20,930 bases of DNA. Source: a virus. Made by a program: the position numbers and the translations under genes. Where the stretch lies: the IMG/VR virus record IMGVR_UViG_3300034683_000012, positions 1-20,930 of that record; one strand, 5' to 3'. The notes beneath the pieces were generated by a model. That model was not told the DNA's origin. It saw only the letters and a list, made by a program, of their open reading frames with translations, and searched no databases. This document shows, one piece after another, positions 3,402 through 20,930 of the stretch. Within the stretch, counting starts at the first letter, position 1; every line of letters starts with the position of its first letter.

Positions 3402-3988
3402 TTTACCCTATTTCTTGCATCTTCAACTAATTTCTTAAACTCTTCATCCTTCCACAGGTTCTTGAACACCTTAACCACCGCATCTATGGAGGCATTGTCT
3501 TTGCACAATTCTAACGCTTTCTTAGCTTGCTCGATGTCGCTTTTAGGTGTAGGTTTGGCTATTGGTTTAGGTGTAGGTTCTGGCTCATCTTTGCCATGCT
3601 TATTGGTAGCATCTGGGTCTTTTGTGTCGTCTATACAGAACAGTCCGTTTAAAGCGTACTTTCGTGCATACGACGATGCAGCACCTGTGATTTGTGCTCC
3701 GTCCATGCCCTTCTTTGCTTCTTCTTCACGTGCAAATGCTGTAGTACTAATACTGTCTTTACCGTCAGAAAGCGTTGCAATAGCTTCAACATATACCCTG
3801 TCAGCCACACAAATGATTTCATCTGACATTACCAATGTACATCCATTTTCTTTTAATAGTGGTTTCAAGGCCTCCAAAACATCTTCAGCTGATCTGAAGT
3901 AATATTTGCCGAAGCTGTTGTATTGGCTCTTTGGTGCTTTTAGATTGCTTTGAATGGCAATCAATTTGTCGTTTAATTCTTTCTCCAT
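3398..3988 (-). CDS. erf: ERF-family single-strand annealing recombinase
   Basis: The 196-aa protein matches the ERF superfamily. YNSFGKYYFRSAEDVLEALK (residues 23-42) and the signature GAQITGAASSYARKYALNGL (97-116) are typical, the latter matching the family pattern G-x2-x-S-Y-A-[RK]-[RK]-Y-A-L. A proline/lysine-rich linker (about 134-150, with repeated PTPKP-like units) separates the annealing domain from a small helical C-terminal domain (151-196). The family forms rings on single-stranded DNA and promotes RecA-independent annealing for genome circularisation, repair and recombination with other phages. It is second in the operon, 21 bases below the 81-aa gene, and is coupled to the exonuclease gene by an ATGA overlap. 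Confidence 0.9.
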   Translation of the reverse strand: MEKELNDKLIAIQSNLKAPKSQYNSFGKYYFRSAEDVLEALKPLLKENGCTLVMSDEIICVADRVYVEAIATLSDGKDSISTTAFAREEEAKKGMDGAQITGAASSYARKYALNGLFCIDDTKDPDATNKHGKDEPEPTPKPIAKPTPKSDIEQAKKALELCKDNASIDAVVKVFKNLWKDEEFKKLVEDARNRVK

Positions 3989-4009
3989 AACATTAATTTT
4001 TAATTGTGT

Positions 4010-4255
4010 TTAGTAATCAAATTTTTTCAATTTATCTGCGGCTTCACAAGCATGCTTTAGTATCAACTCCATGTCGTCCAAAGACAACTGTTCATCGTCT
4101 AAGCTCTCTTTGACCGCCACATTACCATCTTTCACGACTGAAATATTGGATTGCGCGAAATTAACCACTATCTGTAAGCGTGGGTGAATGATGAACGTCA
4201 TCGTTCTGTTTGCAGTATCAAATACTGTTTCGTAATTGTAATTATTCATTTTCAT
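4010..4255 (-). CDS. Unrecognised 81-aa protein, first gene of the recombination operon
   Basis: This soluble protein begins MKMNNYNYETVFDTANRTM. It appears to have a beta-rich first half (TFIIHPRLQIVVNFAQ, then NISVVKDG) and an acidic helical second half ending AADKLKKFDY. No membrane, cysteine or catalytic signature is visible. Its ATG at 4255 is about 13 bases below the predicted transcription start and follows an A-rich tract, as is usual for Bacteroidota starts; a second ATG two codons on (4249) is a possible alternative. As the promoter-proximal gene before ERF and its nuclease it is likely expressed early, but I do not recognise the family and assign no function. Confidence 0.65.
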   Translation of the reverse strand: MKMNNYNYETVFDTANRTMTFIIHPRLQIVVNFAQSNISVVKDGNVAVKESLDDEQLSLDDMELILKHACEAADKLKKFDY

Positions 4256-4274
4256 TTTAATTAATTTTACTCGG

Positions 4275-4306
4275 CAAAGCTAACATGTATTTTTTCATTA
4301 TCCAAA
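4275..4306 (-). promoter_or_regulatory. Bacteroidota-type promoter for the DNA-metabolism operon
   Basis: On the minus strand TTTG (4303-4306) is followed by 20 bases and then TAGCTTTG (4275-4282), an exact TAnnTTTG -7 element. The predicted start is near 4269, leaving a leader of about 14 bases before ATG 4255. It sits just downstream of the terminator that closes the lysis cassette, which fits a boundary between two transcription units. Confidence 0.75.
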
Positions 4307-4323
4307 TAATTAGTCGATTATTT
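4304..4323. promoter_or_regulatory. Palindrome overlapping the -33 element (possible operator)
   Basis: AAATAAT (4304-4310) and ATTATTT (4317-4323) form a perfect 7-base inverted repeat with a 6-base centre, overlapping the TTTG -33 element. The size and position suit a dimeric repressor or activator. The arms are pure A/T, so chance is a real alternative. Confidence 0.4.
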
Positions 4324-4346
4324 TCTGTGATTTAATGTTATTTAAC

Positions 4347-4374
4347 AAAAACGGCCTCATCGATAGACGAAGCC
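4347..4374 (-). terminator. Intrinsic terminator of the late/lysis operon
   Basis: On the minus strand GGCTTCGTC pairs with GATGAGGCC (9-base stem, including two G-T wobbles) around the tetraloop TATC (4353-4374), followed one base later by five T's (4347-4351). It starts 30 bases after the stop codon of the spanin gene and lies before the next promoter. Confidence 0.8.
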
Positions 4375-4404
4375 ATTAAGGTTGAAATATCGTAATTTGT
4401 TATA

Positions 4405-5004
4405 TTATAATAGTTTGAATCCGTAACGTTTGCTTAGCAGCCATAGAATGAAACAAAGCAAAATGCCTACCACTATACCTATAAGAAACAACCTGAAATT
4501 AAATCCCGTCGTAGGAGTTGTCTTTTCGGACAAACTTTTATTCTCATTTGTTACCAACTCAATCGATTGTTGCAAGTTTTTGTTGAGCGTTATAAGACTG
4601 TCAACCTTTTTGCCGTAACTTTGACTTAAAAACTCTAATTGCTTTATTGTATTCTCGTAAACACTCTTACTTTGCGTTATCGTTTCGTTTGCCTTCGGAT
4701 ATTGTCCGTCTGGCTTAATTTGAGCTCCTGTGTCGTAATTAATCACATGAGACGACACTTCGCTTTGCAGTCTTATGTTCTCATCTCTTGTGCGCTCTAA
4801 GTCGGTCTTTAATAGCTCAACCTCAATTGTCTTCTTTTGAAGCTCATCTTTTAACGTGATAACTTGCGAACTATCAATTTTGGTTACCACTTTTTCTTGA
4901 ATAATCTGCTTAGGTTTGCAGCCTATTATGATTAACAGAACTATCAGTAGTATGACCATTTTCGTGAATATACGAAAAAGGTGTTTTATCTTTTCTTTTG
5001 TCAT
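4405..5004 (-). CDS. Probable unimolecular spanin (outer-membrane lipoprotein with C-terminal membrane anchor)
   Basis: The 199-aa protein has a basic N-terminus, a hydrophobic stretch from M16 and a lipobox ending LIIIGC at C29, so it should be an acylated lipoprotein. Residues about 45-165 are a periplasmic region rich in heptad-like coiled coil (IEVELLKTDLERTRDENIRL, and later VDSLITLNKNLQQSIELV). Residues about 172-190 (FLIGIVVGILLCFILWLL) form a single transmembrane segment with a basic tail SKRYGFKLL. A lipoprotein at one end and a membrane anchor at the other is the topology of unimolecular spanins such as phage T1 gp11, which link outer and inner membranes and fuse them in the last step of lysis. 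It lies 3 bases below the endolysin gene and is last before the terminator, as expected. The lipid anchor and membrane fusion are inferred. Confidence 0.8.
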   Translation of the reverse strand: MTKEKIKHLFRIFTKMVILLIVLLIIIGCKPKQIIQEKVVTKIDSSQVITLKDELQKKTIEVELLKTDLERTRDENIRLQSEVSSHVINYDTGAQIKPDGQYPKANETITQSKSVYENTIKQLEFLSQSYGKKVDSLITLNKNLQQSIELVTNENKSLSEKTTPTTGFNFRLFLIGIVVGILLCFILWLLSKRYGFKLL

Positions 5005-6688: not shown

Positions 6689-9600
6689 TTATTGTCCTCT
6701 ATCTACATGAGGTCTCCAATATCCACCGTAATAAACAAGAATAACCAATGAGTTGCCGCTCAAAAAGAAATCCTCGTTCGATGACTTATACCTAATATTG
6801 CTACCACTTGTCGTACATTTTAACCATGTATCTGAATTTGAAATATTCATTACGATCTTAATCATACCGTTTGTTGGAGTAGCACCGTTACCATCCGCAT
6901 TTATTTTTAATATCCCTGAGCTTGAATAAGCCATTGTTATAACCAACAAAGATGTATCTGTGTTTATTGTATAGTTTGTACTCGCTGCCATAGATAGTGT
7001 CGTATATGCCATTTGGGGAAACCCTAAATTAGTCATTTTTTTAATATTGTCCAATATAGCCCCTCCAAATTTTATGGTTGCCGACGAATTACCTATAAAA
7101 ATATCATTATAAAATCCTTCATATCCAAGATATATGTCATTTTCGGATTCAATTCTTATTCCGAACGTTGATTCAATTCTTAAATGACCACTCGAATTTG
7201 GCTGTATGCTACCTGCAAAAGTCCCAAGTCCTGTGTACCACTCTATCTTTTGAGAATTACTACCATCATATATTAGTTGTAGTCCGCTGTTATCTAAGCG
7301 TCCCTTTCGTTGTGTTGTGAATGTAGGTGGTAAATCAATATATCCTCCAGATTTTATCTCGAGAGAACCAAGATAACCACTTACTGCATCGATAACACCG
7401 CTAAATACGCCATCCGTAAACTTCACACTCCCATCATGCCGTATTATTGCCTTAGCTGTACCACTAAGCGCATCATTATACGTCCCGCCAGCAACAAGAA
7501 ACGGCAAATCTTTATTCGTACCCTGTATCCCGCTGATAAGGCCTGTTACCTGCGGACTGTCTAACTCCCTGTATTCTGTTATTACCGTGCTGATTAGGCC
7601 GCCATCTACCCGAGTCCCGAATTTGTCGGTTATCGCCTTACTTCTGTTTACCTCCGATACTATCCGATTATACCTTTGAGAATGTGTCTTACCCCCAATA
7701 GTCTCTTTGTAAGTACCCATTGTGGCACTGTCATAGATGGTAGTCCATGTAACTCCGTCAACAGAAATTTCTGTTTTAGTGCCGTAAAATGTTCGTCCGT
7801 CTGTGTAATCGTGCCATATCTGAATGTAGTCTATGTCGTTATATACTTGGCCTAAGTCTATTCTAACGTAGTTTGATGTTGCTGGTGTCGTGCCGTTTAT
7901 CTGCGCATAGGTGTTTATATTGTTATCGGTAGCATTTGCAGCTGGATAGCTTGCGTTGAACGTACCATTCGATGATGGTGTTTTACCTTGTGCTACATTA
8001 GTACCATCTTTACGTATTACATTAATCTCTCTCCATACATTATTCGTGCTTAACGTGCTGCCTTGAATCCAATCTCTTACATAACGAGCTTTCATGTAGC
8101 CGTCGGCTGCTAATTGAGCGTCGTCTGCAGACGTTTGTGCCGCATCTATTTCCGCCTGCACATCTTCGGGTGCTGGTGTCCAGTCGGTTGCCTTGTTGCC
8201 TTTTTCAAATTTAACTCGTGTAATATAAAAAGGAATTGTATTGTTAGTATAAAACCTTAAAGACCTGTTATTTGCTGAGTCTAACTCCCCCTCTACCTTA
8301 ATTAATTTCCAGTCTGTTGTTACAGAAAACAAAGTACTTAATGACGCACCACCGCCTTGATAGCCCATATATACAGTAGTCTCAGAATCAGCCCTTATAA
8401 ATGCCTGGTAAGAATATCTATTTCCGGATTCTGCTATTATAGTTCCATCGCTGAATGTACTACCTGAATGAATACCCATAGGAGTTCCCGTAATCGGTGT
8501 TACCTTAAGCGCTTTATCATAGATATAATCATCAACAACTTCAATAATTGCAGAAGAACCCAATGGAGAAAATATAGAAGTGGTGTCTCTTAAAAAGTTA
8601 CTCTCAGGAACTAAGTTTCTACCGCCTATCTGTAGATTATTTACAGCCTCCCATTCACTCGAAACAGCATATCCTGTGTAAACTGTAGAGGCAGGATTTT
8701 TATAAACAACTTTTACTCTTGACCAAATATATTGTCCTTGCACCCAAGTTGGCTGTGTAATGCTCCATCCACTTGTTGGTTGAACCGTTTTTGAAGTAGA
8801 AATAGCGTATTCTTCTGTTACGCTTTCAATACCTGTCCCAACATCTCCTTTCTTGGGAGTGATATTGGCAGGTGTGGTATATGTAGTACTTCCGCTCGAA
8901 TAAGTCGTTTTTGTTCTTGTCCAAAGTTGTTCTCCTTCCAAAAGTGTTGGTGCGGTCGTAGTCCATCCAGTAGTAGGTGGTGTGGTTGCGCTTGTGTTCT
9001 TGGCAAATTCAACATCAACCAAAGTTACTGAAACTCCGTCTGAACCAGTCCTTGCCTTTGCGAATGACTGTGTCTTGGTAACACTAAATGAAGCACCATC
9101 CTGCGTTTTACCACTTATGGTAAATGTTATAAAGGCATTGTCTAAGGTCATGTTCGACGCATTGCCAAACACGCACGTTAATCCGCTTTCGCTTTTTGTC
9201 CCTACGGTTATGCCTGTTGATGTTGCTGTTACATTAAACTTACCGTTCCCAGTACCAACTCCGTCATAATCTAATTCAGTAGCACCTTCAAATACTCTAA
9301 TGGTAGTACCTGAACCTGAATAATCTGAAACAACCCCTTCTGGGGATGCGGGTAATACGTCAGCTTCGTTACTTAATACTACATTAATCGCATTTACCCC
9401 GCTTGCTCCTTTAAATACCACAGGTATTGTCATCGTATCGAGTAGGATAGTTTTTGTAGCTGTGTCGTATAGTCTTACAGTATAACTTGTTTTACCATCT
9501 CCAATTGCAGGAGCTATAGTTACGGGACTTGCTATTGCGGTGCTTGGCTCTGTGCCTCCGCTTGGTGTAACCGTTATAAACCCTCCTTGCGTCGTCGTTG

Positions 9601-12600
9601 TTCCGCTTCGTAACTCTCCTGAAATCGTTACAGATGTATGTACTCCACTTGTGATTGCATCAGGTGCATTCTTATAAATTACCGGAGCACTTGCTTTTAT
9701 AGACCAATAAGTAGCTTTTACAACTGCAGCATCTATTTCGGCCTGCACGTCTTCTGGAGCAGGCGTCCAGTCGGCAGGTTTGTTACCTTCAACTAATGCG
9801 AGATTACATATTACCACAAAATCGCCGGGAGCTAATCTACCAGAGAACTGAAAATAAATAACTTGCGTTCCTATATCGGCTTGTGATGATGGTATTGATA
9901 GTACTACATTTTTTCTCTCTATTGAAGTATTAATGTTAAAATACCCATAATTTGTAAAATAATTTAGACCATTTGTTTGTACTATTGCGACACCAACATT
10001 TTCAATAACTTTTGACGCATAAATATCAAACGATAATGAATAGGTTGTACCTTTTTTTAATTTCGGGTAATTTATATTATTATATCGTAAAACTGCATAC
10101 TGTGTATTTTCGGCAATACAGCTCCATTTCACACCATTAACGTCAAGTACATTTTCAGAAGAAATCGTAAACGCGCTTGAATTATATACTGTTTGTCCCC
10201 ATCCGGAGCTACCTTTATTTGTTCCAAGCAGTAAGTTTCTTCCGCCTACCTGAAGGTTATTTACAGCCTCCCATTCACTCGAAACAGCATATCCTGTATA
10301 AACCGTAGAGGCAGGATTTTTATAAACAACTTTTACTCTTGACCAAATATATTGTCCTTGCACCCAAGTTGGCTGTGTAATGCTCCATCCACTTGTTGGT
10401 TGAACCGTTTTTGAAGTAGAAATAGCGTATTCTTCTGTTACGCTTTCAATACCTGTCCCAACATCTCCTTTCTTGGGAGTGATATTGGCAGGTGTGGTAT
10501 ATGTAGTACTTCCGCTCGAATAAGTCGTTTTTGTTCTTGTCCAAAGTTGTTCTCCTTCCAAAAGTGTTGGTGCGGTCGTAGTCCATCCAGTAGTAGGTGG
10601 TGTGGTTGCGCTTGTGTTCTTGGCAAATTCAACATCAACCAAAGTTACTGAAACTCCGTCTGAACCAGTCCTTGCCTTTGCGAATGACTGTGTCTTGGTA
10701 ACACTAAATGAAGCACCATCCTGCGTTTTACCACTTATGGTAAATGTTATAAAGGCATTGTCTAAGGTCATGTTCGACGCATTGCCAAACACGCACGTTA
10801 ATCCGCTTTCGCTTTTTGTCCCTACGGTTATGCCTGTTGATGTTGCTGTTACATTAAACTTACCATTTGCAGTACCAACTCCGTCATAATCTAATTCAGT
10901 AGCACCCTCAAATACTCTGATAGTCGTACCAGAGCCTGAATAATCAGAAACAACACCTTCTGGCGATGCAGGTAATACATCGGCTTCGTTGCCTAATATT
11001 ACATTAATTGCATTAACCCCACTTGCACCCTTAAATACGACAGGTATTGTCAATGTATCTAAAAGAGTTGTTTTAGAGGCAGTGTCGTATAGTCTTACAG
11101 TATAACTTGTTTTACCATCTCCAATTGCAGGGGCTATTGTTACAGGACTTGCGGTTGCAGTGCTTGGCTCTGTGCCACCATTTGGAGTAACAGTTATAAA
11201 TCCACCTTGTGTTGTTGTCGTTCCGCTCCTAAGCTCACCTGAAACTGTTACAGACGTATGCGTACCGCTTGTGATTGCATCCGGTGCATTCTTATAAATT
11301 ACAGGTGCGCTTGACTTTATAGACCAATAAGTTGCTTTTACAATAGCGGCGTCAATCTCTGCCTGAACATCTTCTGGGGCTGGTGTCCAGTCGGTGGCCT
11401 TTGAACCAGTTTCGAGTTTTATCTCCTTAATATAAATGTCTGACCCCGCCTGAACAAACAGATTAATAGGCTTTAAATATTTTTCTACACTCCAATTACT
11501 TGTTTTTATTTTTACCCATACTCTTCCCCAATTCGTTGCTGGATAAAAACTTAAAGAACCACCATTATCTGACCCAACAGCGCCATTTGAGGCAACAGTT
11601 GATACAGGATATGAATAATTACTAATTATAAATTTAACTTGTCCATTACCCTTTAAATCAAAGGAAAAAACATATTCTGAATTTCGAGTAAATTCAAAAC
11701 TTTTTGGGAAGGTACTTAATTGTACTTGTTCTTGCCCTGATGAATTGTCTGTATGTAATTCTTGTTTTGTATTTGTAAGTAAATTCCTTCCGCCTATCTG
11801 AAGATTATTAACTGCTGTATCGTCCGTGTACCGTATCTTCTTAGTCCAATGCGACTGATTATAAACAGTACTGTCCTGTAATGCGGTAAGCACATCACCT
11901 TGTTTATACGCTACTCCGTTAATTGTCATGTCTGCATTCAGTACCCACATATCGCCCAATTTGTACGACGTAGGTTGAATAAGATATGTGGTACTTTTAC
12001 CGTCAGCAGTAGCTTGTGCTTCTGAGGCTAACTGTAGAGCTAAAACTGCATCACTGTCGGCTATAAGCGTCCATGAATAAACTCCATTGTTTACGACGAA
12101 CCGCCAACTTTTACCAGCATCTGGTGTAGTTTGATTGTCAATAAATTCTTGCGTGTTTGTGAACGTATCACCTATATGCCTATTCTTTATTTCATCAGTT
12201 GTCCATTCAGATGCAGGATAGTTAGATAGAGTAGGAGAATAAGGATAGAACCAATTAGAGACCTCACCGTCTATTTGAGCCTGTAATCTGTCAACTTCTG
12301 AATTAATCAACCCAACAGCAGCGGAAGCGTCGTTTATGGCTTGTTGCGCTTTCTGATCAGCCTGATTAGCTAACGATTGTGCATCTTGTATGTCAAACGA
12401 AGTGCCATCAGCCCATTCGTCAAGATTAAACCCGCTTGAAAGAAATACCGTACTCCCAACTATTCTGTTACCAAGTCTTGTGAATTTGGTAGTTTCTTTG
12501 CCTGTTAAGTCATACGAGTTTATACCAGAATACTGAATAAACGACGGTGCATCGTTGCCTACCGTAGAGAGTATCATCGCACCCTGTCTGTTTACATCGG

Positions 12601-14809
12601 TTGAACCGAGTTGAAAGATGGTATCGCCAACTTCTGGTATATCGCTATTTAACGCAGCATCTGTCTTGCTCAACTCAATGTAATCAGTGCCTACGGCTAC
12701 TACTTTTCGCCAATAAAACTTTTGTCTTGTACCCGTAAATATCTGACATCTTGCAAAGTCGGATGTTGAGAATAAGTTTTCAACTTCTCCGTCTTTAGAA
12801 TCAAAGTAACATCTGTAAAAGTCGGTAGTTTCTTCAACTTTTGTGCACAACATATTAGCTGCACTGATAATCAACTGACCTCCAACACTTCGTGCTTCGT
12901 GTATTAAGACTGAAAAGAACTCCGCTCTTTGTCTTACAAGTAATTGGTCAACCTCCGCAACCGAAGTACCGTTAATGTTCTTAATAGCCGCACCAGAACC
13001 GAGTAGGCCAGAGGCAAACGTACCAACCTCTATCCCTTCGAGAAATTTTATTAACTTTTGAGCAGTGTCTTCGGATACCTTAGATAGAAATTGCCTGTCT
13101 CCTATTAATCTGATAAGACTTTCGGTTTGTTTGACATCCAATATAGAGCCACCAGCGCCGCTTAAAAGGTAATTGATCTGATTTTGTATCTTCTGAATAG
13201 TCCCGACTTGTTTCTCTTCGGTTAGTGTTACTTCATAAATAGGTATAATTTCATCACCTTCTTTAATCCTTAGGTTGTCGATTATGATACTCCCTGCTAT
13301 ACCCAAATCTGTGTCTGCAAATTGAAGATAATCACCCTCTACTATGGTGTCGTGAAGAATAGGATTGCGAGCCATGTAAACGGGAGAAATGTTTACTTCG
13401 TATGTGTATCTTACATAATCATTCTTAGATAGATATTCTTGTCCTGCTGATAATAATCTTTGCGAAGCTGCCTCTATATATACCTCTGGCATTTCTATGT
13501 TTAAGAGGACAAATTTATCGCCAGCCTTGATGTTCATCGAAGCATACGGGAAATATAGTCCTATACCTTCGTCCAATACCCTGTTACATGTAAGTATGTA
13601 CTTGTTGCCTTCTTTTACGCATGACAGTATTTCAAATTCTCGGCCGCCGCAAAGGCCGTTTTTCATTGATATAGTTGCGCCTGGCAAGTAGTCGTTTATA
13701 TCAAATCCAATATCCTTTAAGGTTATCTTGAATGATGGTACGGTTGCGCCTTCTTCAAATATACCGTTGTCTGTAATAGGAGTGCCATCGCTGTTAACAG
13801 AATCGGACGCAATCTCGTCCAAATTACCGTTGTCTCCAGAATCCAAATTGACTATTATACCAGCTGCACTTAATTGAGATGCGGTCATGCCTTCGAGCGA
13901 AGGATAAATTTCTGGTAATGATTCATCGCTACCATCAAAGAATACGCTACCCTCCATGACACCCAAAGCACCTACATTTGGACTGTCAATATACGGGTCC
14001 AATGTGGTATAAGGAAATGACGGTAACATGAGGTTTTGAACCGCCATGTTGTTAGGGAGGTATAACGATAAATCTGGCTTTGTTAATTTGTTGTAGTATC
14101 TAAACGGTAAGTTTCTCGTGCTGCCGTAAACCCTTAGTCTGGTTATGATTTGTTGTTCCGGATCGGCTATTCTTGTTATCCTGTTTAGTCCGTTACCCTT
14201 ACCGTACTCAAACACATCGCTTATGATATTACCAGCAGTCCCTATGGTTATCGTTCGACCACGAATGATGAAATTAGATTTAAACGTAGTAGATACAAGC
14301 GACAAAGCGCCCCAAACATTTAATCTGTCTGCGGTGATAAATACATTGTTTACGGTTATGTTTGAATCGTTAACAGTTACAGTCCACGCACGGTCGCCCG
14401 TGTAAACCCTGTCAAGATTGGCTTTTATCCTGTCGGCTAAGTCGTGAATGGTCAGTGCGTGAAATCCGAATGAAGGTAGAGAAGAGAAATGAATGAGGTT
14501 ATCGTTAAGAACGTAGTCCAAGAACTCGCATCTTACCAACTCGTCCGAATAGCTGTTAAATTTTACGTTATCGTATGTGAACGCATCTCCCGTAGTGTTC
14601 TTGGTCGCTTTCTTTATGATAGATGGATCGTAGTTTAACGTAAATTGTTCGCCGCGATATATCACATAATCACCTATTGAGAAATCTATAGGATAGGGTG
14701 ATGTTATCGACGCAGTGATAAACCTGTCCCCCATGAAAGAGCCGCTGTACTCTAATTTGTGAATATCGCAAAGCTTTTCGTTGTTCTTATTGTAAACCTT
14801 CCAACTCAT
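6689..14809 (-). CDS. Giant Tal-like tail-tip / receptor-binding protein (2706 aa)
   Basis: The N-terminus (about 1-540) resembles the tail-associated (Tal, gp27-like) hub that closes the siphovirus tail tip: MSWKVYNKNNEKL, DFSIGDYVIYRGEQFTLNY and repeated beta structure. A helical connector region follows at about 540-690 (IQNQINYLLSGAGGSILDVK, then VDQLLVRQRAEFFSVLIHEA). The distal part is modular. Three NNLQ[IV]GGRNL segments start near residues 1001, 1517 and 2056, each ending near DWTPAPEDVQAEIDAA. Two long tandem units of immunoglobulin-like beta repeats lie between them. A discoidin/F5-8C-like domain lies at about 2270-2390 (NVAQGKTPSSNGTF to YVRIDLGQ). The C-terminal 300 residues look like a fibre tip (GYLGSLEIKSGG; YYGGYWRPHVDRGQ). 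It shares one base with the upstream gene (TGATG) and probably binds capsular or surface glycans. No depolymerase active site is evident. Confidence 0.85.
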   Translation of the reverse strand: MSWKVYNKNNEKLCDIHKLEYSGSFMGDRFITASITSPYPIDFSIGDYVIYRGEQFTLNYDPSIIKKATKNTTGDAFTYDNVKFNSYSDELVRCEFLDYVLNDNLIHFSSLPSFGFHALTIHDLADRIKANLDRVYTGDRAWTVTVNDSNITVNNVFITADRLNVWGALSLVSTTFKSNFIIRGRTITIGTAGNIISDVFEYGKGNGLNRITRIADPEQQIITRLRVYGSTRNLPFRYYNKLTKPDLSLYLPNNMAVQNLMLPSFPYTTLDPYIDSPNVGALGVMEGSVFFDGSDESLPEIYPSLEGMTASQLSAAGIIVNLDSGDNGNLDEIASDSVNSDGTPITDNGIFEEGATVPSFKITLKDIGFDINDYLPGATISMKNGLCGGREFEILSCVKEGNKYILTCNRVLDEGIGLYFPYASMNIKAGDKFVLLNIEMPEVYIEAASQRLLSAGQEYLSKNDYVRYTYEVNISPVYMARNPILHDTIVEGDYLQFADTDLGIAGSIIIDNLRIKEGDEIIPIYEVTLTEEKQVGTIQKIQNQINYLLSGAGGSILDVKQTESLIRLIGDRQFLSKVSEDTAQKLIKFLEGIEVGTFASGLLGSGAAIKNINGTSVAEVDQLLVRQRAEFFSVLIHEARSVGGQLIISAANMLCTKVEETTDFYRCYFDSKDGEVENLFSTSDFARCQIFTGTRQKFYWRKVVAVGTDYIELSKTDAALNSDIPEVGDTIFQLGSTDVNRQGAMILSTVGNDAPSFIQYSGINSYDLTGKETTKFTRLGNRIVGSTVFLSSGFNLDEWADGTSFDIQDAQSLANQADQKAQQAINDASAAVGLINSEVDRLQAQIDGEVSNWFYPYSPTLSNYPASEWTTDEIKNRHIGDTFTNTQEFIDNQTTPDAGKSWRFVVNNGVYSWTLIADSDAVLALQLASEAQATADGKSTTYLIQPTSYKLGDMWVLNADMTINGVAYKQGDVLTALQDSTVYNQSHWTKKIRYTDDTAVNNLQIGGRNLLTNTKQELHTDNSSGQEQVQLSTFPKSFEFTRNSEYVFSFDLKGNGQVKFIISNYSYPVSTVASNGAVGSDNGGSLSFYPATNWGRVWVKIKTSNWSVEKYLKPINLFVQAGSDIYIKEIKLETGSKATDWTPAPEDVQAEIDAAIVKATYWSIKSSAPVIYKNAPDAITSGTHTSVTVSGELRSGTTTTQGGFITVTPNGGTEPSTATASPVTIAPAIGDGKTSYTVRLYDTASKTTLLDTLTIPVVFKGASGVNAINVILGNEADVLPASPEGVVSDYSGSGTTIRVFEGATELDYDGVGTANGKFNVTATSTGITVGTKSESGLTCVFGNASNMTLDNAFITFTISGKTQDGASFSVTKTQSFAKARTGSDGVSVTLVDVEFAKNTSATTPPTTGWTTTAPTLLEGEQLWTRTKTTYSSGSTTYTTPANITPKKGDVGTGIESVTEEYAISTSKTVQPTSGWSITQPTWVQGQYIWSRVKVVYKNPASTVYTGYAVSSEWEAVNNLQVGGRNLLLGTNKGSSGWGQTVYNSSAFTISSENVLDVNGVKWSCIAENTQYAVLRYNNINYPKLKKGTTYSLSFDIYASKVIENVGVAIVQTNGLNYFTNYGYFNINTSIERKNVVLSIPSSQADIGTQVIYFQFSGRLAPGDFVVICNLALVEGNKPADWTPAPEDVQAEIDAAVVKATYWSIKASAPVIYKNAPDAITSGVHTSVTISGELRSGTTTTQGGFITVTPSGGTEPSTAIASPVTIAPAIGDGKTSYTVRLYDTATKTILLDTMTIPVVFKGASGVNAINVVLSNEADVLPASPEGVVSDYSGSGTTIRVFEGATELDYDGVGTGNGKFNVTATSTGITVGTKSESGLTCVFGNASNMTLDNAFITFTISGKTQDGASFSVTKTQSFAKARTGSDGVSVTLVDVEFAKNTSATTPPTTGWTTTAPTLLEGEQLWTRTKTTYSSGSTTYTTPANITPKKGDVGTGIESVTEEYAISTSKTVQPTSGWSITQPTWVQGQYIWSRVKVVYKNPASTVYTGYAVSSEWEAVNNLQIGGRNLVPESNFLRDTTSIFSPLGSSAIIEVVDDYIYDKALKVTPITGTPMGIHSGSTFSDGTIIAESGNRYSYQAFIRADSETTVYMGYQGGGASLSTLFSVTTDWKLIKVEGELDSANNRSLRFYTNNTIPFYITRVKFEKGNKATDWTPAPEDVQAEIDAAQTSADDAQLAADGYMKARYVRDWIQGSTLSTNNVWREINVIRKDGTNVAQGKTPSSNGTFNASYPAANATDNNINTYAQINGTTPATSNYVRIDLGQVYNDIDYIQIWHDYTDGRTFYGTKTEISVDGVTWTTIYDSATMGTYKETIGGKTHSQRYNRIVSEVNRSKAITDKFGTRVDGGLISTVITEYRELDSPQVTGLISGIQGTNKDLPFLVAGGTYNDALSGTAKAIIRHDGSVKFTDGVFSGVIDAVSGYLGSLEIKSGGYIDLPPTFTTQRKGRLDNSGLQLIYDGSNSQKIEWYTGLGTFAGSIQPNSSGHLRIESTFGIRIESENDIYLGYEGFYNDIFIGNSSATIKFGGAILDNIKKMTNLGFPQMAYTTLSMAASTNYTINTDTSLLVITMAYSSSGILKINADGNGATPTNGMIKIVMNISNSDTWLKCTTSGSNIRYKSSNEDFFLSGNSLVILVYYGGYWRPHVDRGQ
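8201..8626 (-). other. Exchangeable module 3 of the tail protein
   Basis: This insert lies between DWTPAPEDVQ and GGRNL of the third segment (about residues 2062-2203). It has a carbohydrate-binding-module-like beta-sandwich pattern (YSYQAFIRADSETTVYMGYQ, then SLRFYTNNTIPFYITRVKFE), with sequence unrelated to modules 1 and 2. Confidence 0.55.
8685..9244. repeat. 560-bp perfect direct repeat, copy A (inside tail protein gene)
   Basis: Every base matches 10305-10864 at a constant offset of 1620. It encodes the segment with DGVSVTLVDVEFAKNTSAT, TPANITPKKGDVGTGI and ISTSKTVQPTSGW. The first mismatches outside are at 8684 and 9245. A more diverged repeat continues on both sides (about 8636-9780 against 10256-11400). 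Confidence 0.95.
9781..10246 (-). other. Exchangeable module 2 of the tail protein
   Basis: This insert (about residues 1522-1677) contains YSLSFDIYASKVIENVGVAI and FVVICNLALVEGNKPADW, a jelly-roll carbohydrate-binding-module pattern. It is clearly A+T-richer than its surroundings: lines 9901-9960 and 10021-10080 each have 13 G/C of 60, against 26 of 60 in 9001-9060. Confidence 0.6.
10305..10864. repeat. 560-bp perfect direct repeat, copy B (inside tail protein gene)
   Basis: This is identical to 8685-9244, in the same orientation and reading frame. Between the two copies lie module 2 and the diverged half of the repeat unit. Recombination between copies would delete or duplicate exactly 1620 bp (540 codons) without changing frame. 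Confidence 0.95.
11401..11797 (-). other. Exchangeable module 1 of the tail protein
   Basis: This insert (about residues 1005-1136) contains YVFSFDLKGNGQVKFIISNY and INLFVQAGSDIYIKEIKLET, again a jelly-roll-like beta-sandwich but unrelated in sequence to modules 2 and 3. It is bounded by NNLQIGGRNL and ATDWTPAPEDVQ, the same junctions as the other two. Confidence 0.6.
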
Positions 14810-15846: not shown

Positions 15847-18800
15847 TCATTTAACTTTTAGAGATTTAGTACCAGCCGAAACAGAGTTTAAGAAGTCCAT
15901 GATGTCTTCTGCCATCTTGGATGCCTTCTCTGTGTTTCTCGCTATGTTTTGTAGTTGAATTAATTGTGCCTTACCCAATGCGGTTATCTCCGGCATGTCC
16001 GAATCGATAAGCCTCTTGACAAAGTCCAATTGCATTGCAATGTCAGCCCTGATACCGTTTACATAAGAAGCAAGTAATGAGGCTGTGTCTTCGGTTATAC
16101 CCTTTATCCCAGCCGCCAATCCTCCTTCTTCTTTATCGGGTTTATCTTTAAGCGAAACGCCGTAATTATCCTCCATGTATTTATTGAGAGAATCGAGAGC
16201 TTTATAATAGGCCTCCGATTTCTTTTCTCCCTCCATAAGGATTTTGGCAAGTCCTTCCATCTCCCTTTCATCAAGCACATAGTCTTGCCCGAAATAACCA
16301 CCTTTGCCGTCTTCTCCAAACAATGCTATTCGTGCTTTCTCCATCATCGGCTGTAATATTTGCATCTTAAGCATGTCATTCATCACACCGGCTAATATGT
16401 CGGCAGATGTCTTTCTAAACGCCTCTGCACCGTCTTCTCCCTTCTTCCATGCCTCAAATAACGCATCTCCCAATTGAGACGCCCAATTCTTAAAGTCGAT
16501 GTTTAACAGGTCAGAAGCTGCATCTTCGGCAAAGTATCTAAGTTCTTCTTCTGCTTCTTTTATGGCTGCATCGTAATCTGCAAGCTTTTTCTTGTCGGTG
16601 TTTTTCTTTGCCTCTTCTGCTTTTCTTTGAATCTCTAACTGTTTAAGTTGAAGCTCAAGATTTTTCTTTTGTTCTGCAAGCAATTCTTTCTGATTACCCA
16701 AAGAACGGCGAAGTGATTCTTCAATAGATTGATATGCTGCCTCTAACTTTCTAACCTCTGCCTCACTTTTTTGGATGGCTTTATCAAGTTTTTTGTCATG
16801 TGCTTGCGCTATCTTGCCAACCCAATTAGCAACTTCTCCCATAGCAGCGCCTATGCCTCCGACTATACCTCCTTTTGCAAAGCCTTCGCCTATATTAGAC
16901 ACCGAGCTTATTGCGTCCATAGCATATCCTATATTGTCAGCAACATCTTCATTGCCCAATGCCTCAAACATAGATCTTATGCCACCGAGTGTGCTTGAGA
17001 ACAGATCAAGGTATGGTTGTGCATTTCTAAACGCATCGGCAATCTTATTCTCGGCTGCCTCTAACTTTGTCCCAGCAGTAGCGGCGTCTGTCTGTGCTTG
17101 TGCAAGTGATTTATATTCTACGCTTATCCCTTGTATTTCTTTTTTTTCTACGGGTAATACTCCACTTTTATCAGTCGTAGTAGTTGATTTTACTCCGTAT
17201 GTGCTTACCACTCTGCCACCAGCCTCTACGATAGACAAATTTGCTCTCGCATCTTTAAGCTCTTTTAAAGCGTCTATATACTCGGATATGCCTTCTGTTA
17301 ACGATTTAAAAGGATTGCGTGATTCGTATTCGTTTCTTAGTTTCTTAAGTACCGACATGAGTTCCTTAAACTCGTTTATCGGTAAACTTTTACCCGAAGA
17401 AGCCTTAAACTTTTCTAAGTCGGATATAATACTCTCAATAACCGAAGTAGATAATCTGTCAATGTCCTCAAATGCCATTATCCACGTATCACTCTCTTTG
17501 AATATCTCGAAGTCTAAAGAAGCAAGTGCCTCCTTAGTTCTTTTTCTGCTTTCATCTACCGCTGCCTGTGAAGCTCCGTTCTTAATCAAATCTGCAACAT
17601 CTTGTTCTCCTTGTGCTATTATGTCCTTTCGTTGTTGTTCGTAGTTTTTATAGGTACTTAGTAGCTCTGCGGCTCTCATCAAACTTTCATCGGACAGTTT
17701 CTTTGATTCTTCTTGATAGGCTTTGACAAGTGCAGATGTTTTTCCGCCGAACATCTTTGCTACGGTATCAGGGTCTGCTTTTATGAGTTCAGCAAATGAT
17801 ATCCCTACTTTATTGCCTTTTATCTCATCCTCTATTTCTTTTTGCAGCTGTTCTAACACGGACTTAAAGCCTACCTTACCGCCGAACACTGCGTTTATGG
17901 CAAAACTGTAATCTCCCGATTCTTTATAAAGTTTAGAGAACAAATCCCATTTGGCTATTGTCTCTGTAATCTGTCTCTCTACGTCGGCCAACGTTGTTTC
18001 TACCGACTGTCTGTCTAATCCAGTTAAAGCTTTAGCCGCATCGACACGTGCCTGCGTGCTGCCTGTTTTGCGTATCTTCTCCAATTCTGATCTTAATGTA
18101 TCTGGATCAAATTCTGGATATATAGCTTTGGCTACACTCTTTGCTCTATCACTACCTGCTATCTTAACCCATTCTTCGTACATTGAGTTGGCCTCCATCA
18201 ACAAAGCAACTCTATCTTTCAGGATGTCGTTTGTAGCATTAGTTTCATTCGTGCTTTCTTTATCTCTTAACGCAATCTTTGCCTTAATATCCTCGATTTC
18301 TTTCAGCTTCTTATTCCACTCATCAGTGCCGATAAGTGAATCGTCCATTAAATCTAATTGATTCTGTGCGGCACTTAATTGATTCTCCCAATATAATTTA
18401 TTCTGTTTTACGTCTTTATCATCAATCTTCAACCAATCAAACAAAGATTCGGCCTCATTTCTCTTTTTGATAAGATCGTTTTCTGCCTTCAATATGTTGT
18501 TTATGGTAATAGGTACAGTATTTAGTGCAGCATTTGTTTTCATTACATTTCCTGCAGTGCCAGTGCCTATAACTCTTTCAAATTGCATAGGGAACAATTG
18601 CTCAATTTCTTTCGACAATTCATCAGACAACTTACCTGTTGTTTCTATGTCATTTCGCACACGCTTAATAAACTCATCGGCAAACTTCTGCCCTTTTTTT
18701 ATAACCGCCTCATCGTATATCTTAGCATATCCTTGAACTGCAGTTTCTATTGCTTTTGTTTGTAACTCTTGTGTGGCTTTTGTTACGGCCTCTGCTTTGG

Positions 18801-19941
18801 CAGTCTTGTATATCTCGTCTCTTAAAACCCTATATGCGCCAGCCTTATCATTAAGACTTGATATTTCTGAACCCATAGCAGACAGTATATCTCCGTGTTG
18901 AGATAATATTTGTGCTCTTGCGTCATACCATTCAGCAGTACCTTCTCTCGTTTTATCAAGATTTTCAAATAGTTTATCTAATTGAGCTATTTCTTTTGCG
19001 GATGCCTCTGCGAAACTTTTTCCCAATTCTTTTATTTCTTTTCCTGTTAACTTGGCAGCACTACCAAATTTAAACATGTTGCCAATAGCATCTAATATCT
19101 TAGCACCGAACAAGGTCATTACGGTAACTACCGCAACAAATGCAGTCTGCCAACTGAATATACTTGCAGCAACCTGTCTCCATACAGGTATGGCCTTTAT
19201 ATTCTGATTCATGCCATCCTTTTGCTGCTGCCTTAGTATTTTATATTCTTCATTGGCTCTTTTTACCTCATCGGCAAACATAGGTGCGTTGTTGGATATG
19301 GCCGCGAAGAATATATTAGCACCATACGCAATAGACGGGAGCTCTCGTGCTAATTGTTGTACCTGAAAAGTAAGGCCGTTAAAACCAGACTTGTAATTAC
19401 CGACGTTTCGCCGATAACGCATTGAGGCTTGTTCGGCCTCATTTAATTTTATGGTTGTTTGTTGGATGTTTTTAAGTAGTTCTTTACCTGCGGCTGCCTC
19501 CCTTTCTGCCTCACCTAATCGATCATACTCATAGATTAGCTTTCTTATTTGTTCTTTATAAGAAAGAATACTACCTTCGGCCAAGTTCTGTTTTTTTGAC
19601 GCATCGACAAGACTTTTGCCTACATTGTCAAGTTCTTGCTTAACTTTGGCAAATTCTTGGATAGTCTCGGTCGCATCGGCAGACTTTGGTAGTTTTCTGT
19701 ATTGTTGTTCTAATTCTTTCGTCCGTTGAATAAGTTGTTCGATGTAGCCTATCTCTTCTTGTGTAGCCTTAGCCCCAGCATTGCCTCTTTTTGCAGTTGC
19801 AGAAGTATTGGTAGTAGCGCTTACCTTGAGCTTTACCTCAAGCTTCTTAAGTTGTTTGAGCGCTCTCTTTTTTATAGCCTCTAACTGTTTGGGATTATCC
19901 TTATACAGAATAGAGAAATATAACGATCCGAGTTTTGCCAT
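15847..19941 (-). CDS. Tail tape measure protein (1364 aa)
   Basis: This long, mostly helical protein has extended charged coiled coils (about 65-175, 480-560, 700-900, 1060-1140) and a hydrophobic segment at about 264-283 (WQTAFVAVVTVMTLFGAKIL). A second glycine-rich hydrophobic stretch lies near 1020-1045. The segment RRNVGNYKSGFNGLTFQVQQ, followed by LARELPSIAYGANIFFAAIS and NNAPMFADEVKRAN (about 177-230), is the block I associate with tape-measure proteins of Bacteroidota siphoviruses. The protein sets tail length and helps DNA pass the cell envelope; at about 0.15 nm per residue it suggests a tail near 200 nm. Its ATG is 2 bases after the stop of the frameshifted chaperone, the canonical order. 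No lytic domain is recognised in it. Confidence 0.93.
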   Translation of the reverse strand: MAKLGSLYFSILYKDNPKQLEAIKKRALKQLKKLEVKLKVSATTNTSATAKRGNAGAKATQEEIGYIEQLIQRTKELEQQYRKLPKSADATETIQEFAKVKQELDNVGKSLVDASKKQNLAEGSILSYKEQIRKLIYEYDRLGEAEREAAAGKELLKNIQQTTIKLNEAEQASMRYRRNVGNYKSGFNGLTFQVQQLARELPSIAYGANIFFAAISNNAPMFADEVKRANEEYKILRQQQKDGMNQNIKAIPVWRQVAASIFSWQTAFVAVVTVMTLFGAKILDAIGNMFKFGSAAKLTGKEIKELGKSFAEASAKEIAQLDKLFENLDKTREGTAEWYDARAQILSQHGDILSAMGSEISSLNDKAGAYRVLRDEIYKTAKAEAVTKATQELQTKAIETAVQGYAKIYDEAVIKKGQKFADEFIKRVRNDIETTGKLSDELSKEIEQLFPMQFERVIGTGTAGNVMKTNAALNTVPITINNILKAENDLIKKRNEAESLFDWLKIDDKDVKQNKLYWENQLSAAQNQLDLMDDSLIGTDEWNKKLKEIEDIKAKIALRDKESTNETNATNDILKDRVALLMEANSMYEEWVKIAGSDRAKSVAKAIYPEFDPDTLRSELEKIRKTGSTQARVDAAKALTGLDRQSVETTLADVERQITETIAKWDLFSKLYKESGDYSFAINAVFGGKVGFKSVLEQLQKEIEDEIKGNKVGISFAELIKADPDTVAKMFGGKTSALVKAYQEESKKLSDESLMRAAELLSTYKNYEQQRKDIIAQGEQDVADLIKNGASQAAVDESRKRTKEALASLDFEIFKESDTWIMAFEDIDRLSTSVIESIISDLEKFKASSGKSLPINEFKELMSVLKKLRNEYESRNPFKSLTEGISEYIDALKELKDARANLSIVEAGGRVVSTYGVKSTTTTDKSGVLPVEKKEIQGISVEYKSLAQAQTDAATAGTKLEAAENKIADAFRNAQPYLDLFSSTLGGIRSMFEALGNEDVADNIGYAMDAISSVSNIGEGFAKGGIVGGIGAAMGEVANWVGKIAQAHDKKLDKAIQKSEAEVRKLEAAYQSIEESLRRSLGNQKELLAEQKKNLELQLKQLEIQRKAEEAKKNTDKKKLADYDAAIKEAEEELRYFAEDAASDLLNIDFKNWASQLGDALFEAWKKGEDGAEAFRKTSADILAGVMNDMLKMQILQPMMEKARIALFGEDGKGGYFGQDYVLDEREMEGLAKILMEGEKKSEAYYKALDSLNKYMEDNYGVSLKDKPDKEEGGLAAGIKGITEDTASLLASYVNGIRADIAMQLDFVKRLIDSDMPEITALGKAQLIQLQNIARNTEKASKMAEDIMDFLNSVSAGTKSLKVK

Positions 19942-19943
19942 GA

Positions 19944-20611
19944 TTATAGTTTATTACGCTTTTTGTATTTTTCGATCGACCGATTGATCCTATCAGCCGA
20001 CGGTTTGCCAAACTTTTTCTTTTCAGGTTTGATGTATGACACGGGCTTGTCGCTTATTATCAACTCTAATTGTGCATTGGTCACAGTCCAATAATAATCA
20101 TACATCGGTATCTTACAGAATAATATTATTTTCGGCTGCATCATCCAACTGTAATCTTTTAAGTAATCCCACGCTGCACCGTATCTTGTCCTTGACGGAT
20201 AGAAGACACTTCTTTCTTGTTCATCATCATCATCGTATCCCTCATATCGGTCATCAATATGGTATTCACGAAGTACGATTGCAGCGGTATTTTTTTTTTA
20301 CCGATAGCCAATACCTCCGTTAAATCTGCTTCGGAGTATTGTTTTACGTAATAAAACCATCTCCACAAGAACGGATAGAAGAACTTGATCTTCAAGAAAC
20401 CGTTAAGAATGATACATGCAGCAGTCTGATAATTGGCTACCGCATCGTTGCCTTCTTTTAGGATGATCTGATTGATCTTTCTTACCGTCCCTGCATGAAG
20501 CCATTTGATCTTATACGTCTTGTTTCGTATCTTGGCGTAATCGGGTAAATTCTCTATGATAGAGTTTAATTCGTCTTGTGCTTCTTTAGATGGTTGTTTT
20601 ACAGTTGCCAT
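19944..20611 (-). CDS. Frameshifted tail assembly chaperone (G-T type fusion, about 222 aa)
   Basis: The product would share its first 107 residues with the 150-aa protein, shift -1 in the A10 run (20290-20299), and continue for 115 residues to the TAA at 19944. The -1 frame has a TAA exactly at the 5' edge of the run (20300-20298) and then stays open for the entire distance. Its new part reads NTAAIVLREYHIDDRYEGYD, a block of acidic residues, then DYYWTVTNAQLELIISD and a basic end SIEKYKKRNKL. Long-tailed phages commonly make such a pair (G and G-T) between the tail-tube and tape-measure genes; the T part recruits tail-tube subunits onto the tape measure. The downstream part lacks a convincing start of its own: ATG 20144 would cut the domain in half. 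Frameshifting is inferred from sequence. Confidence 0.78.
20159..20611 (-). CDS. Tail assembly chaperone, zero-frame product (G type, 150 aa)
   Basis: The unshifted product starts MATVKQPSKEAQDELNSIIE and has a helical body with an aromatic stretch, FLKIKFFYPFLWRWFYYVKQ. It ends about 43 residues after the A run with a methionine-rich segment and a polar tail. The fold impression, size and place between tail tube and tape measure match tail assembly chaperones, which coat the tape measure during tail building and are absent from the virion. It follows the terminator by only 11 bases, with no promoter in between, so it is presumably made by read-through from the tail-tube transcript. Confidence 0.75.
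   Translation of the reverse strand: MATVKQPSKEAQDELNSIIENLPDYAKIRNKTYKIKWLHAGTVRKINQIILKEGNDAVANYQTAACIILNGFLKIKFFYPFLWRWFYYVKQYSEADLTEVLAIGKKKIPLQSYFVNTILMTDMRDTMMMMNKKEVSSIRQGQDTVQRGIT
20290..20299 (-). promoter_or_regulatory. A10 slippery site for -1 frameshifting
   Basis: Ten consecutive A's on the coding strand follow GGT and are read AAA AAA AAA ATA in frame zero. Tandem-lysine slippery sequences of this kind allow -1 ribosomal slippage, and runs of nine or more A's also permit polymerase slippage. An internal GGAGG lies 14 bases upstream (20314-20318). Confidence 0.8.
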
Positions 20612-20674: not shown

Positions 20675-20930
20675 TTAAGCCCCAGCCAAAAGGATAATGT
20701 CAGCTCCGTCCTGATTAGGTTTCGGGAATATCTGAACATTAAAGTAAGCAGGAGTGCCAGAAGCAATAACAGGATTAGCGAACATCTCCACATTCGGGAG
20801 TGCTACCAATCTTGTACCATCCTCCGATGCAAGAATAAGCGATCCTGTTACTTTTTTGGTTTCGGTTGAATATCCTTGTCCTGAAAGCGATAATCCTCCT
20901 AAGGTATTAGTGCCACTTGAAACGGCCGTA
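20675..20930 (-). CDS. C-terminal end of probable major tail (tube) protein, partial
   Basis: Eighty-four codons and a TAA (20677-20675) are visible; the gene enters from the right edge. The peptide appears beta-rich and lacks cysteine: GGLSLSGQGYSTETKKVTG, LILASEDGTRLVALPNVEMF, then ANPVIASGTPAYFNVQIFPK and a short acidic end. A small beta-sandwich protein just upstream of the frameshifted chaperone and tape measure is normally the major tail-tube protein. The strong terminator directly after it fits a very abundantly expressed structural gene. Identification is by position and composition, because the N-terminal half is not in the window. Confidence 0.6.
   Translation of the reverse strand, partial: TAVSSGTNTLGGLSLSGQGYSTETKKVTGSLILASEDGTRLVALPNVEMFANPVIASGTPAYFNVQIFPKPNQDGADIILLAGA

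Follow-up and report, generated by a model that had tools for sequence, protein, structure and literature searches.

The window, a 20,930-nucleotide stretch of viral DNA (positions 1 to 20,930 of IMG/VR record IMGVR_UViG_3300034683_000012), carries on its minus strand two overlapping reading frames, here called G and T, which are directly followed by a tape-measure protein gene. G (20159..20611, ATG at 20611) is a zero-frame ORF of 150 codons, and its tail-chaperone-like product of 17.5 kDa is the one expected without slippage. It contains a run of ten As (20299-20290), which the zero frame reads as GGT AAA AAA AAA ATA and which comprises the heptamer A_AAA_AAA; the minus strand at this site reads ...GCTATCGGT AAAAAAAAAA TACCGCTG..., with GGT before the run and TACCG after it. 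T (19944..20297) is an extension of 117 codons plus a stop in the -1 frame, in which no start codon precedes 20144. As described in the initial annotation, the -1 frame has a TAA (20300-20298) at the 5' edge of the A10 run and ends two bases ahead of the tape-measure ATG (19944 versus 19941); the number of open codons is 117 and not the 116 given there, the stop being located at 19946-19944. The region 20159..20289 is thus dual-coded: its zero frame specifies the C-terminal helices of G, and its -1 frame the acidic linker of T, behind which lies the folded part of T. The predicted fusion G-T (19944..20611) has 222 aa and a mass of 26.4 kDa, and its computed translation passes at the junction from ...AIGKKK to NTAAIVLR....

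The tape-measure protein gene (15847..19941, minus strand) was recognized by its match to PHROG 9959 (E 1.8e-45). The initial annotation assumed the gene order tail tube, chaperone, tape measure; the upstream gene, represented in the window by its C-terminal 84 codons (20675..20929, minus strand), gave no family match, and is a putative tail tube gene by its position. A gene of 192 aa occupies the same place in one of the relatives (L006) and likewise gave no family match. Elsewhere in the window (6689-14809), a tail-tip/fibre-like protein of 2706 aa contains an internal duplication of nearly identical stretches approximately 1620 bases apart, which was seen from two near-copy antisense or alternative-frame ORFs (8818-9269 and 10438-10889).

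Conservation of the A run among relatives

Relatives were collected by scanning viral contigs, Bacteroidota genomes and named phages with zero-frame protein patterns derived mainly from the part upstream of the run, and the loci were read automatically. This resulted in 113 analysed loci, which together with the window make 114 sequences, grouped in 64 clusters at 90% amino acid identity. A run of nine or ten As was found at the homologous place in all 114 sequences, and a shorter run in none. The distance from the start of the run to the zero-frame stop is 41-68 codons (median 53, 64 clusters), and the -1 frame is open for 117-163 codons in the relatives whose contig is long enough. A run of eight or more As is on its own not unusual at the base composition of the window; the whole arrangement, i.e. 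the run plus the open -1 frame among relatives, is far beyond chance. The initial annotation had proposed such a comparison, and both the run and the two frames proved to be kept throughout the 114 sequences. Separate genes with a conserved internal start, which it had named as a finding that would speak against a fusion, were looked for among the relatives and not found, and its claim stands; neither did any of the 114 sequences encode G-T as a fusion in a single frame.

The run is read in three codon registers: AAA AAA AAA (51 clusters), CAA AAA AAA ACN (12 clusters) and GCA AAA AAA AAA CTT (one cluster), and in every register, and in all 114 sequences, A_AAA_AAA is in the zero frame. The 12 clusters of the CAA register form one clade (support 100/99), so that the register change occurred once; the loss of one A at the 5' side is matched by one A at the 3' side, by which nine As are kept. 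This ninth A is supplied by the next codon, which is ACN in 12/12 clusters of the CAA register versus 12/51 clusters of the main register. All lysine codons within the run are AAA, whereas before the run AAG makes up 62% of the lysine codons of the same genes, and none of the 64 clusters has a run of fewer than nine As or any AAG in it. Long runs are also rare outside the locus: six related genomes (359 kb) contain eight A/T runs of at least nine, six of which are the slip site itself, leaving two elsewhere versus 13.5 expected overall under an order-4 model. In several records of 60-73 kb the slip site is the sole A9 on either strand.

The TAA that flanks the run in the window was considered as a functional element and rejected because it is not conserved: it is missing from relatives that have GGC or GCC before the run and from the CAA-register clade, and is incidental.

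A tape-measure gene lies next to T in the window and in most relatives with enough sequence. The exception is Dulem virus 40 (L011, PP511379; locus 3713-4954), in which an opposite-strand integrase directly follows T in the place expected for the tape-measure gene, and a large gene of 6.1 kb in opposite orientation lies past the integrase. A locus from a Muribaculaceae MAG (L018, 3747-6438) also has no tape-measure ORF after T. Since short ORFs and a phosphoesterase-like gene, which we take to resemble a host PHP-type phosphoesterase, are found there instead, T may in this case be located near a prophage end.

Selection on the two reading frames

In the overlap, the -1 frame contains no stop in 3004 codons, compared with 367 stops in the +1 frame (64 clusters); upstream of the run, the -1 frame has 426 stops in 6916 codons. 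When the zero-frame codons of 30 representatives were resampled synonymously, the product of the probabilities was near 1e-40, a figure that is not corrected for phylogeny. The divergence per codon position follows the same division: it is.13/.07/.35 upstream of the run, which is a zero-frame pattern,.08/.14/.15 in the overlap, which is a compressed dual pattern, and.15/.10/.39 in the part coding for T only, which is a -1-frame pattern past the zero-frame stop. Among 46 disjoint pairs, 43% of the zero-frame fourfold sites differ upstream of the run versus 19% in the overlap (Fisher 9e-20), and the value is already 20% in the first ten codons past the run (46 disjoint pairs; 1e-7), the P values being guides only because codons within one pair are not fully independent. 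These patterns indicate that both frames are under selection from directly after the run.

In the overlap (20159-20289) a helix is predicted for the zero frame, against an acidic, poorly ordered linker (DDDDEQ) for the -1 frame. The sequence YPSRT, located in the overlap or at its edge, is invariant in the -1 frame. Among the relatives, the codons at -15 to -1 before the run differ at 30% of their fourfold sites, versus 41-54% further up; this lowered variability may hint at an upstream element.

Predicted structure of the protein products

Structures of G and T were modelled with AlphaFold, rows from annotated phage records being left out of the input. The model of G, of moderate confidence (pLDDT 72), consists of a beta-hairpin followed by helices. 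Among 350,542 PDB chains its top match was the HK97 tail assembly chaperone 2OB9, with a weak Foldseek score (E 0.92), and on re-alignment this structure gave a Z of 5.4 over 89 residues (rmsd 6.6), followed by the prophage protein YqbN (3KLU; Z 4.8, weak). Both are the best structural neighbours of the G model, with weak scores and an identity of 4-11%, at which homology is not established by sequence. The matches among viral models included the N15 GT protein and several annotated tail assembly chaperones. That chaperones top a list drawn from 350,542 chains is telling, even though the individual scores are weak.

The model of T (pLDDT 71) has a poorly ordered stretch in its first 30 residues, which corresponds to the overlap-coded acidic part, and then a more confident small fold. 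It had no PDB match with a Z of at least 2 and no useful viral match, results that say little because of the pLDDT of only 71. Comparison of G and T with Pfam, PHROG and PDB sequence profiles returned nothing significant. Based on the fold matches and the gene order, G and G-T are putative tail assembly chaperones.

A probable programmed -1 frameshift at the A run

Three explanations that require no programmed shift were considered and rejected. T could be a separate gene, re-initiated after the stop of G at an internal codon such as the ATG at 20144; the window indeed has ATG ATG at 20144/20141, and short downstream ORFs are annotated separately in public records. The -1 frame is however selected and stop-free across the overlap, upstream of any start, and it is there without ATG, GTG or TTG in 59 of the 64 clusters, the other five having only a lone TTG or GTG at codons 5-8. 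This near-absence of start codons argues against internal initiation of the upstream part of T. Moreover, the ATG positions further down T are not conserved and come only after the -1-frame motif YPSRT..G, and the A run would be left unexplained, so that two separate genes are very improbable. Long A runs can also be hypermutable, and replication slippage of the DNA could vary the run length between phage particles as a phase-variable switch. Nevertheless, the length is constant in near-identical contigs and isolates (A10 in the five-contig cluster of the window and in the LoVEphage group) and the zero-frame register is kept in all 114 sequences, which makes phase variation very improbable as well. 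A mistake in assembly or sequencing, or a frameshift mutation of recent date, comes to mind for any homopolymer, these being prone to errors; but the same arrangement recurs across the Bacteroidota, in genomes of isolates as well as in complete phages and metagenome contigs, no relative has a single fused ORF, and the chance of such an error or mutation is negligible.

The stops of the -1 frame, the divergence, the fourfold sites and the start codons indicate that translation of the -1 frame begins with the run, and place the change of frame at or very near it. Together with the universal A9 or A10, the stop-free -1 frame, the selection on both frames right after the run, the tape-measure neighbour, the lack of fused or separately started homologues, and the weak but specific match to the HK97 chaperone, this supports what the initial annotation had proposed, namely that a net -1 shift at the A run joins two tail-chaperone parts. 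The locus thus very probably encodes G/G-T tail assembly chaperones, with a programmed net -1 frameshift taking place at A10. The comparison of relatives indicates that both frames are selected, that the switch maps to the run, that the run is universal and that an alternative start is absent; the existence of the G and G-T products, their ratio and their roles we infer. The fusion family, which belongs to phages of the Bacteroidota, is previously unannotated.

Under a programmed frameshift, normal decoding would give G (150 aa), and some decoding events would gain a net single base at the run. This could happen when RNA polymerase puts one A too many, or two too few, into the mRNA, or when the ribosome steps back one base on A_AAA_AAA; decoding would then go on in the -1 frame and yield G-T (222 aa). 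In phage lambda, both G and GT are tape-measure-binding proteins, and recruitment of the tail tube subunits falls to T (PMC5009743). By analogy, many copies of G and few of G-T would cover the tape measure, the T part recruiting the tail tube subunits.

RNA polymerase or ribosome

Both routes predict the identical protein, and sequence alone cannot separate them. For G/GT genes, slippage by the ribosome is the accepted mechanism, and those shifts that have been studied by experiment are described as ribosomal (PMC5009743). The same programmed shift could be made by the ribosome alone, through a tandem slip of tRNA-Lys by -1 on A_AAA_AAA, the mode of lambda-type G/GT genes; each of the three registers has this heptamer in the zero frame, and an RNA structure need not be present for low-level shifting. 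On the other hand, seven As or A_AAA_AAG would do for the ribosome, but all clusters keep nine As or more and use no AAG. A downstream RNA stimulator was not found either (mean z of +0.12 for 30 representatives versus -0.17 in control stretches), in a test that covered 60 nt and nested structures; a pseudoknot may still be present. Shifting by the ribosome alone thus has a little less than an even chance.

According to Baranov et al. (PMC1088944), when homologues conserve the length of a run of nine As, that run very likely functions in transcriptional slippage. The run described here has at least nine As and is conserved in length among its homologues (A9 or A10 only, in three registers). Slippage of RNA polymerase, a route left open by the initial annotation, appears at least equally likely given the nine-A minimum in three registers. 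It is suggested, acting alone or together with ribosomal slippage, by this minimum in all registers, by the recovery of the ninth A in the CAA-register clade, by the lack of a downstream structure, by the avoidance of such runs elsewhere and by the published criterion. Judged from these sequence features it is only slightly favoured, because nine As in the main register also follow automatically from KKK plus A_AAA_AAA, and because the CAA change happened a single time. That the G : G-T ratio of a widespread phage family is set by RNA-polymerase slippage and not by ribosomal frameshifting is a real possibility, somewhat short of probable. A G/GT pair using RNA-polymerase slippage was not found reported in the literature searched.

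Comparison with known frameshift systems

The class of G-T frameshifts was described by Xu, Hendrix and Duda (2004, as cited in PMC5009743). The present locus has in common with lambda G/GT a pair of overlapping frames ahead of the tape-measure gene, the net -1 shift, a short form next to a predicted extended fusion, and a putative chaperone-like fold of the short form. As in lambda-type genes, the downstream part is open from the slip site without a start of its own and the slippery sequence is kept among homologues. A slip site close to where G ends is usual, though not defining, and is not observed in the present family: the shift of lambda lies near the 3' end of its G gene, whereas here 41-68 codons separate the run from the stop, most of them coding in both frames. 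Lambda-type slip sites are sequences like GGGAAAG, versus a homopolymer of A9 or A10 here, and no sequence similarity between lambda G/GT and the present family is detectable. The family is therefore distinct from lambda-type G/GT in its long dual-coded overlap, and in a nine-A minimum that is maintained despite a changed codon register.

Genes with transcriptional slippage at A8-A10 include IS elements of Deinococcus and Nostoc, spa13 and mxiE of Shigella, and dnaX of Thermus (PMC1088944, PMC5009743). They resemble the present locus in that a stretch of at least nine As is conserved, a single gene yields two products (predicted here), and A runs are avoided elsewhere. None of these named genes is a phage tail chaperone, and polymerase slippage by a Bacteroidota enzyme is a candidate mechanism here. 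The locus offers a clean system for asking whether phage tail assembly is tunable at transcription, not translation, and also how some 40 codons can serve for a structured helix in one frame and at the same time for a linker in the other.

The genes of LoVEphage, BI-TP1 and PV4-TP1 represent the same locus, with A10 and both frames, and differ in lacking a joined frameshift annotation: their parts are recorded as separate hypothetical proteins (e.g. BI-TP1 gp28/gp27). That the shift is expected near the stop codon helps to account for this. In the SEA-PHAGES annotations it averages 26 nt before the stop, and for eukaryotic viruses the predictor PRFect failed on almost all cases with more than 51 nt (PMC10885494). 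No frameshift in this phage family was found in the searchable literature (subscription papers lay outside the search), and the papers on LoVEphage and gut prophages are silent on it. Since annotation tools expect a shift close to the stop codon, gene calls need to be corrected across the whole group. In a large group of temperate Bacteroidota phages, formerly unknown fragments would thereby become the tail assembly chaperones; one member of the group is LoVEphage, whose detection rate in gut viromes is about 8% (PMC12629997).
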